Of a DNA stretch of 32,606 nt, positions 12,390 to 30,724 are shown piece after piece. Source of the stretch: Parcubacteria group bacterium GW2011_GWD2_38_11 (GTDB taxonomy: Bacteria > Patescibacteriota > Minisyncoccia > Moranbacterales > GWC2-37-73). How positions within the stretch are numbered: position 1 is the first letter of the stretch; each line of letters starts with the position of its first letter. Under the pieces are notes generated by a model. It saw only the letters and a program-made list of their open reading frames with translations. It was not told the DNA's origin and made no database searches. Made by a program: the position numbers and the translations under genes. Location of the stretch: positions 1 through 32,606 of the forward strand of contig LBTZ01000014.1 of the NCBI GenBank assembly GCA_000992325.1. The letters run 5' to 3'.

Positions 12390-12443
12390 TAAAAATCCAT
12401 CAAAAAGGACAGTGTTATACTAAATTAAATGAATCTGCCGTAT

Positions 12444-12533
12444 GTCATTCCCGTGAAAACGGGAATCCAGGGCCAGGCCTCGCTCTGGATCCCCAGTCCC
12501 TCCATAGGCGGGCACGGCAAGCTGAGGATGACA
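12444..12533. repeat. ~90-bp MITE/REP-like element, copy A
   Basis: GTCATTCCCGTGAAAACGGGAATCCAGG...CTGGATCCCCAGTCCCTCCATAGGCGGGCACGGCAAGCTGAGGATGAC; inverted copy at 14559..14647. Confidence 0.85.
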
Positions 12534-12629
12534 ATGTACCAGTAAATAAGTTAATTTAGTATCAGTATGATGAGTATATATATCAATATAAATAAATATA
12601 TTATACACACCGATTGGATAATGCTGGTT

Positions 12630-14411
12630 CTATTTTTCCGTCAGGTGTTCTTGTTTATGTTGACTGGCTAGAAGTGCAAACAAGATCCATAGAATTATTT
12701 GTCCTTGTTGTATATCCCAAAAATAATGATCAAAAAACATAATAAAAACAAATGCAAGAAGAATTCCTTTTAAGTAAATCAAAATTGTATTGCTTTTTAA
12801 ATTGTTCCACGTGGAACAATCCGTATCGCCTTCTGGTTTAAATTGTTTCATATGAAACAATTTAAACAAAAAATAGATAAAGCCAAATAATAAAAAAAAT
12901 CCAAATTCGTTTAGTATAAGCAGAAAAACGTTGTGAACTGGTTGGTATAGCCATGCCTCCAGTCCGTAATTGTTTACCATGCTTGGAATAAATTGCCCTG
13001 CGCCAATTCCAGAGAATGGTTTTTTCGTAAATGCTTCAATGGATATATTGACGTAGAACATTCTCTCTCGCAGGCTCTTTAGAAGTAGTGAGTCGACATC
13101 TGGCTTTGCAATTAAAAATGATAATATAAATATTCCACAGAGAAGTATAATTTTTCTTTTAAATTGTTCCACGTGGAACAATTTAAACATGTTTTGAACT
13201 CTCTTGTAAATTGTTCCACGTGGAACAATTTGGTTTTTTGAAGCTGTGTAGATATAGAATAATCCTATAAATAAGCCAAAAATTGCAGATTTTGAAAAGG
13301 TCAATAGAAGTGCAAGGCATTGAATAAGGATGATAAATTGAAATAATGTTCCACGTGGAACATTATTGATTATTTTCTTTAACAAATTGTTCCACGTGGA
13401 ACAATTTGCTTTTGTGTGTAAATCAGCTTTTTGTGTAATATAAAATTGTTCCACGTGGAACAATATTAACATAATTGAAAAAACCAAAAATCCTCCTAGT
13501 ATGTTTGGATGAGGAAACAGCCCGTATGCGCGAATATAAACATCCCCATCTAAAATAATCTTGGCGACCCCAGGCATTATTGGTGATATTGTGCTTTCTT
13601 TAAGCCAAAAAAGACCAGCAGAAGATTGTTTAATAAATTGAATGACCCCAATAATGGACTGAAATACCCCTGTCCAAATTATTATTAAGGAAAGATTTTG
13701 TAAAATGTTCCACGTGGAACATTTATTTTTGCTGATAGTGTTATTTTTCTTTGTTTCTTTGTGATGTTCCACGTGGAACATTCTTGTCAGTGTTTTTGGA
13801 ATTTGTTTGAAATAATCTTTGAATGTTCCACGTGGAACAATTTGTATTATGTAAAAATACATCAAGATAAATTCAAATAACTTGATTGATCTGTATGTGG
13901 CAATCAGCTTGTTGGTTGTCCACAGTATTGATAAAAAAGAAAAAAAGGCTATAAATAAAGGAAATATTGTTAAATAATTGTTAATAAATAGTGTATAAGA
14001 TTTTTTAATCAACAATAATGTTCCATATGTAACATTATATGTGGTGTTTTTTAAATTGTTCCACGTGGAACAATTTAAACTTGGATTGGGTTTATTTTGT
14101 AATTGTTCCACGTGGAACAATTTAAGTTTTGCTTTTATTTTAACAAAATATATTCTTAAATTTGACAAGATATACTTAATATTGTATAATATATAAAATA
14201 AAAATGTTAAAATTAAGAAGATATCAGATAGGTAGATGTATACCCCCGTATATTCATTAAAGGAATTATTAATTGGTAGATAATATAAAATTTTCCTTAT
14301 TGATAATGCGCTGGTTAATAGGAACATATAAAAAAACCAGACATCGGGTCTTGCCTTGAATGAATCCCAGCTTTGCTTGATTATATCTGACATATTTTCA
14401 TTATAGCGCAT
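12630..14411 (-). CDS. O-antigen ligase/polymerase-like membrane protein (Wzy_C-like) whose coding sequence hosts a parS-type array
   Basis: Many TM segments; FTKKPFSGIGAGQFIPSMVNNYG...YQPVHNVFLLILNEFGFF is Wzy/WaaL-like. Contains 13 embedded palindromes. Confidence 0.85.
   Translation of the reverse strand: MRYNENMSDIIKQSWDSFKARPDVWFFYMFLLTSALSIRKILYYLPINNSFNEYTGVYIYLSDIFLILTFLFYILYNIKYILSNLRIYFVKIKAKLKLFHVEQLQNKPNPSLNCSTWNNLKNTTYNVTYGTLLLIKKSYTLFINNYLTIFPLFIAFFSFLSILWTTNKLIATYRSIKLFEFILMYFYIIQIVPRGTFKDYFKQIPKTLTRMFHVEHHKETKKNNTISKNKCSTWNILQNLSLIIIWTGVFQSIIGVIQFIKQSSAGLFWLKESTISPIMPGVAKIILDGDVYIRAYGLFPHPNILGGFLVFSIMLILFHVEQFYITQKADLHTKANCSTWNNLLKKIINNVPRGTLFQFIILIQCLALLLTFSKSAIFGLFIGLFYIYTASKNQIVPRGTIYKRVQNMFKLFHVEQFKRKIILLCGIFILSFLIAKPDVDSLLLKSLRERMFYVNISIEAFTKKPFSGIGAGQFIPSMVNNYGLEAWLYQPVHNVFLLILNEFGFFLLFGFIYFLFKLFHMKQFKPEGDTDCSTWNNLKSNTILIYLKGILLAFVFIMFFDHYFWDIQQGQIILWILFALLASQHKQEHLTEK
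12803..14119. promoter_or_regulatory. parS: parS-like ParB binding site array: 11 perfect TGTTCCACGTGGAACA and 2 variants
   Basis: Perfect 16-mers at 12803, 13165, 13212, 13347, 13388, 13447, 13706, 13765, 13824, 14057, 14104. Variants TGTTTCATATGAAACA at 12844 and TGTTCCATATGTAACA at 14019. Confidence 0.85.
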
Positions 14412-14474: not shown

Positions 14475-14545
14475 GGGCCCATAGTAAAATGGTATTACAC
14501 GACCATGGCATGGTTGAAGTTGGAGTTCGATTCTCCATGGGTCCA
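14475..14545 (+). tRNA. tRNA-Ala(GGC)
   Basis: Acceptor GGGCCCA/TGGGTCC, anticodon arm CGACC-ATGGCAT-GGTTG, T-arm GTTCGATTC. Confidence 0.85.
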
Positions 14546-14558
14546 CAGGTGGTATTTT

Positions 14559-14647
14559 GTCATCCTCAGCTTGCCGTGCCCGCCTATGGAGGGACTGGGG
14601 ATCCAGAGCACAGCACAAACCTGGATTCCCGTTTTCACGGGAATGAC
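14559..14647. repeat. ~90-bp MITE/REP-like element, copy B (inverted relative to copy A)
   Basis: GTCATCCTCAGCTTGCCGTGCCCGCCTATGGAGGGACTGGGGATCCAGAG...CTGGATTCCCGTTTTCACGGGAATGAC is the reverse complement of copy A apart from the centre. Confidence 0.85.
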
Positions 14648-14672
14648 AAAGTAATTATTTTTTTAAAAGTCT

Positions 14673-19464: not shown

Positions 19465-19546
19465 GCCCAGGTGGTGGAATTGGTATACACGCCAGTCTTA
19501 GGAACTGGTAGAGCAATCTGTGGAGGTTCGAGTCCTCTCCTGGGCA
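19465..19546 (+). tRNA. tRNA-Leu(TAG)
   Basis: Acceptor GCCCAGG/CCTGGGC, anticodon arm CCAGT-CTTAGGA-ACTGG, variable arm present. Confidence 0.9.
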
Positions 19547-19547
19547 C

Positions 19548-19591
19548 AAATAAAAACAAACCTCTCTTGCAAGAGAGGTTTGTTTTTATTT
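19548..19591. terminator. terminator after tRNA-Leu, perfect 44-bp palindrome
   Basis: AAATAAAAACAAACCTCTCTTGCAAGAGAGGTTTGTTTTTATTT. Confidence 0.85.
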
Positions 19592-19855
19592 GTTTCGGAT
19601 GAGACTCGAACGGACAGAAGCTAAGCAAGATAATTTTCAGCAGAAAGTTATCGCAGTGTGCGTCAATGAATGCGAGGAATATGAGCATTCAGTGCTGTCC
19701 CCGACAAAGAATGAGCGAGCGACGGCGAGTGAATGATGCGGAAGTCTGACTAATGTTCTTAGCTATCTAGCTTGATTAAGACGATGTTTTATGTTAGGGT
19801 GGTAAATATTAAGGTTGGTATTTTGAAATCGTTCCACTTGGGGCACAATGATATT

Positions 19856-30418: not shown

Positions 30419-30446
30419 AAAACACCCCGATTAATCGGGGTGTTTT
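30419..30446. terminator. terminator, perfect palindrome
   Basis: AAAACACCCCGATTAATCGGGGTGTTTT. Confidence 0.85.
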
Positions 30447-30608: not shown

Positions 30609-30691
30609 GCCGCGGTGGTGGAATGGTATACACAAGAGGCTTAAAACCTCTCGGGCGCAAGCCCTTGCGAGTTCGAGTCTCGCCCGTGGTA
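30609..30691 (+). tRNA. tRNA-Leu(TAA)
   Basis: Anticodon arm AGAGG-CTTAAAA-CCTCT, long variable arm CGGGCGCAAGCCCTTG, acceptor GCCGCGG/CCGTGGT with wobbles. Confidence 0.88.
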
Positions 30692-30697
30692 CAAATT

Positions 30698-30724
30698 AAA
30701 AAAAGAGCATTAATGCTCTTTTTT
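30698..30724. terminator. bidirectional terminator
   Basis: AAAAAAAGAGCATTAATGCTCTTTTTT. Confidence 0.8.

Follow-up and report, generated by a model that had tools for sequence, protein, structure and literature searches.

Centromere sites are usually viewed as something apart from genes, or as solitary matches that fall inside one. Palindromic DNA that lies in frame inside coding genes, and that the encoded protein tolerates, is familiar from the Rickettsia palindromic elements, which are dispersed and are longer than the sites described here. The copies in the window (the whole stretch of 32,606 nucleotides that was analysed) instead all lie in a single gene, inferred to be origin-proximal, and correspond to a binding site for a protein. 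In the chromosomal ParABS systems of Bacillus subtilis, Pseudomonas aeruginosa and Myxococcus xanthus, as in the present case, a 16-bp palindromic core occurs in several copies clustered near dnaA, and the genes for ParA and ParB are adjacent (PMC7022226, PMC3899335). The difference is that here up to 18 sites lie in one membrane-protein gene, where they form the main or only array, and that they dictate three recurrent peptides, staggered in reading frame. Putative parS sites within ORFs, including cas genes, have also been described near the partition operon in repABC replicons of Alphaproteobacteria (PMC9040568); the likeness to our locus is the position of the sites within ORFs, whereas the motif, the type of replicon and the small number of copies are different. 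We found no description of a dense parS array in one conserved gene family across an order in the open-licence literature searched.

Our data make it very probable that the 13 palindromes of the window represent the origin-proximal chromosomal centromere (parS cluster) of a member of the Moranbacteria, a large group of very small and mostly uncultured organisms, located inside a functional gene of the WaaL/Wzy_C ligase type, with both ParB binding and segregation being inferred. Much of a bacterial order would keep its main parS array in one gene family, and the locus would add evidence on chromosome segregation in Patescibacteria, a topic on which essentially nothing was found in the literature searched.

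The palindrome array in the window

Eleven exact copies of TGTTCCACGTGGAACA, a 16-bp parS consensus, are clustered within 1.3 kb of a single ORF on the minus strand, which holds two degenerate copies as well and thereby reaches 13 parS-like palindromes. The features are as follows, the sites being given without strand.

12630..14411, minus strand: host ORF, 593 aa, O-antigen-ligase-like membrane protein of the WaaL/Wzy_C type, with all 13 sites
14104..14119: parS-like site 1, exact, read as LFHVEQ; cluster A, loop residues 102-129
14057..14072: parS-like site 2, exact, read as NCSTWNN; cluster A
14019..14034: parS-like site 3, degenerate with 3 mismatches, TGTTCCATATGTAACA, read as NVTYGT; cluster A
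13824..13839: parS-like site 4, exact, read as IVPRGT; cluster B, loop residues 192-233
13765..13780: parS-like site 5, exact, read as MFHVEH; cluster B
13706..13721: parS-like site 6, exact, read as KCSTWNI; cluster B
13447..13462: parS-like site 7, exact, read as LFHVEQ; cluster C, loop residues 324-353
13388..13403: parS-like site 8, exact, read as NCSTWNN; cluster C
13347..13362: parS-like site 9, exact, read as NVPRGT; cluster C
13212..13227: parS-like site 10, exact, read as IVPRGT; cluster D, loop residues 396-413
13165..13180: parS-like site 11, exact, read as LFHVEQ; cluster D
12844..12859: parS-like site 12, degenerate, TGTTTCATATGAAACA, at the centre of a perfect palindrome of 32 bp, read as LFHMKQ; cluster E, loop residues 520-533
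12803..12818: parS-like site 13, exact, read as DCSTWNN; cluster E

When up to three mismatches to TGTTCCACGTGGAACA were allowed, 12 matches were seen against 0.08 expected from shuffles of the window, and the degenerate site at 14019-14034 was recovered by the search. The site that completes the 13, at 12844-12859, has four mismatches and forms the centre of the 32-bp palindrome, the most diverged site of the array thus sitting in its longest perfect palindrome. A preliminary description, made from the window alone, had arranged the sites in groups of two, two, three, three and three, with centre spacings of 38-59 bp (59 bp three times) within groups and gaps of 135-321 bp between them, and had them read in three frames as LFHVEQ, NCSTWNN or (I/N)VPRGT within an ORF that stays open across all 13. 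Mapping, measurement and translation of the sites bear this out, whereas the accompanying statement that the DNA is identical at every site is true for 11 of the 13 and fails for the two degenerate ones. The spacings within groups are 41, 47, 41, 59, 59, 59, 38 and 47 bp, and the gaps between groups are 321, 135, 259 and 195 bp; all eight within-group spacings equal 2 mod 3, a regularity that had not been mentioned before. No exact copy of TGTTCCACGTGGAACA was found outside the host ORF in the assembly (936 kb in 39 contigs, 90% complete), all 11 of the 11 copies lying within it.

At positions ±1 to ±3 the neighbours of the 16-bp core are for the most part A or T and show palindromic covariation, in genic and intergenic arrays alike. 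Its excess over within-genome shuffles is strong at ±1 alone (0.78 against 0.60 in genes), and it is weaker out to about ±6. A long covarying hairpin was considered and rejected on these grounds, and since the excess is limited to the near flanks, what we describe is a motif extended by its A/T flanks to about 22 bp, not a general long hairpin.

Outside the array, the window has perfect palindromes of terminator-like appearance at 19546-19593 (48 bp), 30419-30446 (28 bp) and 30699-30724 (26 bp), two of which come right after, or overlap, the ends of tRNA genes (19465-19547 and 30609-30692).

The host gene and selection on the sites

The host ORF matches the Pfam family Wzy_C (PF04932, E=6.5e-10, 39.4 bits against a curated cut-off of 31.7). 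Its AlphaFold2 model, built on 67 homologues, has a pLDDT of 81.9 and a pTM of 0.85, and the only significant match of this model to a solved structure is WaaL 7tpg (E=1.9e-4, probability 1.00), with TM-scores of merely 0.28/0.39. With the WaaL/Wzy_C O-antigen ligase family the host shares the Wzy_C domain, a multi-helix architecture and the conserved R and H in presumed periplasmic segments, and given the low TM-scores the 7tpg match points to the WaaL fold only tentatively. It differs in length, exceeding the parS-free homologues by about 140 aa, most of which is due to the loops that hold the parS sites. We regard the product as a membrane ligase of WaaL/Wzy_C type, although its ligase activity is inferred and a polymerase or another Wzy_C transferase is possible. 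Three further Wzy_C genes are present in the same genome, and none of them contains an exact site.

The low-confidence segments of the model, at approximately residues 102-129, 192-233, 324-353, 396-413 and 520-533, coincide with the five site clusters, in agreement with the earlier proposal that the clusters occupy loops between TM segments, and a few sites form the turn with which a TM helix ends or starts. Sites read as LFHVEQ tend to close a helix in the model and sites read as VPRGT tend to open one, which explains why some site residues are classed as TM by hydropathy (a fraction of 0.21, versus 0.42 for the whole protein). The conserved segments 262-301 and 436-494 of the host presumably correspond to periplasmic segments in WaaL, and since helix alternation puts the site-bearing loops opposite these segments, the model would place all five on the cytoplasmic side, away from the catalytic side, with the reservation that the loops themselves are modelled at low confidence.

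Alignment of the hosts with parS-free homologues shows to what extent the sites have been inserted. The mean length is 604 aa in 41 hosts against 463 aa in 26 parS-free homologues, and the number of sites is correlated with protein length (Spearman 0.59). By alignment column, 48% of 335 sites fall in columns that are nearly absent from the parS-free homologues, 30% in intermediate columns and 22% in columns present in most of them. In many relatives an NVSRGT site has been substituted at equal length into the conserved segment 'RxFYLnvsrgtFxxNP', after 'RxFYL'; this site is absent from the window. From the split of the columns and from this substitution, it appears that the loops have largely expanded, yet that sites were also written into existing sequence. 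The suggestion that the sites sit where the protein tolerates insertion finds support in this comparison, which had been called for at the outset, through the greater length of the hosts and the 48% of sites in columns nearly absent from parS-free homologues; insertion by itself is nevertheless too simple an account, given the 22% in shared columns, some of them in a conserved segment.

At the level of the bases, the exact 16-mer underlies 264 of the 305 site-peptide occurrences in 41 host genes, and a variant still recognisable as parS underlies nearly all the others. If codons were chosen as they are outside the sites, the exact 16-mer would be expected in 1.35%, 0.21% and 0.25% of cases for the three readings, and because the observed use is so far above this expectation, selection acts on the bases. 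Four close pairs provide a second line of evidence, as shared sites are 91-100% identical in nucleotides, with 0.00-0.12 synonymous differences per site. The DNA-level selection that had been suspected from the window is upheld by both results. When dN/dS was calculated by region for these four pairs, a comparison that had been proposed at the outset, it was 0.15-0.26 in the protein core versus 0.5-0.7 in the loops, and judging from these ratios the ligase core is under purifying selection.

The codon data also bear on the possibility that LFHVEQ, CSTWNN and VPRGT serve the protein as a functional repeat, for instance as a binding or sorting motif, in which case selection would act on the peptides and the palindrome would merely follow. 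Such an explanation could account for the recurrence of the site peptides at homologous loop positions across genera. However, one palindrome yields three unrelated peptides, the arrays persist where the gene is missing, and the 264 of 305 exact 16-mers stand against a prediction of 0.2-1.4%, so that peptide-level selection is refuted unless an unknown codon-level constraint exists, and we find it scarcely credible. Under the centromere interpretation that we prefer, a single stretch of DNA would answer to two constraints, the exact bases of the sites being required by ParB, and an open frame with conserved TM and catalytic segments by the ligase, which would accommodate the sites mainly in the five loops inferred to be cytoplasmic. 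Nature would here provide a clean example of two independent codes acting on the same DNA, for which the intergenic arrays of sister genomes offer built-in controls.

A tRNA-Ala gene is located just upstream of the host gene, at 14475-14546. In two relatives, L056 and L065, the open frame of the host runs back through a tRNA-like stretch, and their listed ORF starts are for this reason probably too early. The host gene of the window is also flanked by a 99-nt inverted repeat (12443-12541 and 14550-14648, 90% complementary) that contains a REP-like CATTCCCGTGAAAACGGGAAT hairpin and might permit inversion or mobility of the gene.

The array and the partition proteins across the order

A profile search identified the relatives as Candidatus Moraniibacteriota (Patescibacteria), and our sample of the order comprised 96 genomes, including metagenome assemblies. 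The exact motif was found in 65 of the 96 and a degenerate form in 82, versus 2 for a reversed control. In these relatives the arrays are either intergenic or genic, and every genic array belongs to one homology family, that of the window's ligase, with 33 ligase ORFs carrying at least three sites, and up to 18, among the loci compared. In a second, overlapping set of loci, 44 host ORFs hold 349 of the 356 sites. No sites were detected in or around 27 more distant parS-free Wzy_C homologues, taken from Falkow-, Magasanik-, Peregrini-, Doudna-, Curtissbacteria and others. Most hosts cluster together in the gene tree, largely by family, although basal support is weak and G080 is a long-branch exception. 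Close relatives differ from one another through gain and loss of individual sites.

Intergenic arrays without the ligase gene, in the same slot and with the same neighbours, occur in genus g7 (G011, G015) and in genus g23 (G055, G089), where congeners of G055 and G089 do have the gene. No ligase remnant was detectable in these gene-less arrays once the parS peptides had been masked. A decayed ligase gene was therefore rejected, the unmasked tblastn matches having come from the parS peptides themselves.

The distribution of the sites is difficult to reconcile with a selfish palindromic repeat of the Rickettsia kind, inserted in frame and similar to parS only by coincidence. Palindromes in frame within the loops of coding genes, in several frames, are superficially what such a repeat would produce, and the turnover of sites between close relatives could be expected as well. 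Dispersed insertion in many genes, which is a trait of the Rickettsia elements, is nevertheless not met, since the exact copies are found in one place per genome, which in the window's genome is one ORF. Moreover, what is repeated is the parS core of 16 bp, the arrays follow dnaA in their position and occur in intergenic DNA too, and a ParB with parS-type specificity residues is present. We consider this explanation largely refuted, with only a very slight chance of being correct.

The ParB in question (306 aa, L142 6424-7344) adjoins a ParA of 284 aa (L142 7434-8288) in the same genome, on a different contig from the array, and it matches the Myxococcus ParB 7bnk (E=1.4e-52). An arginine (R173) and a glycine (G201) define parS specificity in a study of ParB and Noc (PMC7383237). 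At these contact positions (Caulobacter numbering) the protein keeps GKSR...N...G, with GKSR and EGHA in the helix-turn-helix region; the specificity positions were counted by hand along the ungapped helix-turn-helix stretch. The ParB family is represented in 90 of the 96 genomes. Neither parA nor parB was found in the assemblies of G080, G089 and G092, all of genus g23 and with 8-17 array sites each, while parB is incomplete in G095 and parA in G086. A loss of ParB in genus g23 was rejected, as these fragments fit assembly gaps, which are the most likely cause of the three absences even if this is not proven.

In 29 genomes with both on one contig, the array is located 0.3-62 kb from dnaA (median 20 kb); on the two contigs that are nearly complete (826 and 939 kb) the distance is 23-24 kb, and in one family the array is directly beside dnaA. 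The assembly of the window's genome has dnaA on another contig than the array, and the origin proximity of this particular array is thus inferred from its relatives. ParB would load at each 16-bp site and form a partition complex, which ParA would then segregate, neither step being more than an inference. The view of the locus as a dual-use coding and centromere-like sequence, first put forward in the preliminary description, finds support in the synonymous-codon test, the regional dN/dS, the persistence of arrays without the gene, the proximity to dnaA and the ParB residues, in the absence of any binding data.

In Pseudomonas, genes close to a parS site can be repressed by the ParB bound there (PMC7022226), and the sites of our array could by analogy serve mainly to regulate the ligase gene, silencing or tuning it through ParB spreading, without being the principal centromere. 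However, there is no other exact site in the genome, relatives without the gene at this slot retain the array, and other Wzy_C genes exist in each genome tested, those of the window's genome being without an exact site. We judge a mainly regulatory function to be most unlikely.

Staggered reading frames

The use of three frames is not random, since neighbouring sites avoid sharing a frame. Among neighbours less than 80 bp apart, 5 of 113 are in the same frame in genes versus 34 of 88 in intergenic arrays, and with one genome per genus the genic figure is 3.5 of 47.8 (p about 5e-5). Over all genic pairs, the same-frame share grows from 4% below 80 bp through 19% at 80-130 bp to 35-42% at larger distances, whereas in intergenic arrays it is flat over distance, at about one third. 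The pooled statistic and its p-values are overstated because related genomes share orthologous sites, which do not count as independent. A weak spacing signal near 10-11 bp (p about 6e-5 in genes, 0.02 in intergenic arrays) is confounded by relatedness and by a few favoured spacings, and we make no claim on such a periodicity.

Short-range deletions between direct repeats are presumably frequent; the protein would tolerate those that leave the frame intact, so that same-frame pairs would be lost to drift, whereas a deletion by slippage between staggered copies would break the ligase gene and would be purged by selection. The gene could in this manner guard the centromere, the staggered frames acting as a reading-frame lock that stabilises a parS array otherwise prone to contract, a proposal that we put forward tentatively and do not regard as probable. 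The climb of the same-frame share with distance in genes, next to a flat share in intergenic arrays, is what such a lock would lead one to expect.

The staggering could also be a by-product of ancestry, if a founding multi-site block had been copied into several loops, without any need for selection against deletion. The step between frames is nearly constant in direction within each family (mostly 2 mod 3 in f1, 1 mod 3 in f10), as would be expected from such copying, and spacers are alike in several relatives, pointing to multi-site block copying in some of them. In the window, however, the spacers are no more alike than in shuffles (11.8 vs 11.9), two lineages with opposite directions both avoid zero, and simple in-frame tandem duplication predicts 0 mod 3, which is precisely the missing class. 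Given the resemblance of the spacers in several relatives, block copying stays quite possible, though short of probable. The locus makes it possible to test by what means genomic repeat arrays are protected from deletion, how many parS copies are needed per chromosome and in what way peptides imposed on a membrane protein are accommodated by it.

Some parS sites are split at their centre by small GC-rich hairpin inserts in host genes of relatives, namely L054, L056, L058, L063, L118, L120, L121, L125, L127 and L135. These inserts are mostly 21, 30, 36, 42 or 45 nt long and in frame, 19 of the 24 raw matches being 0 mod 3, and a single candidate was seen in the intergenic arrays. A mobile palindromic element with the parS palindrome as its target is one possible explanation.
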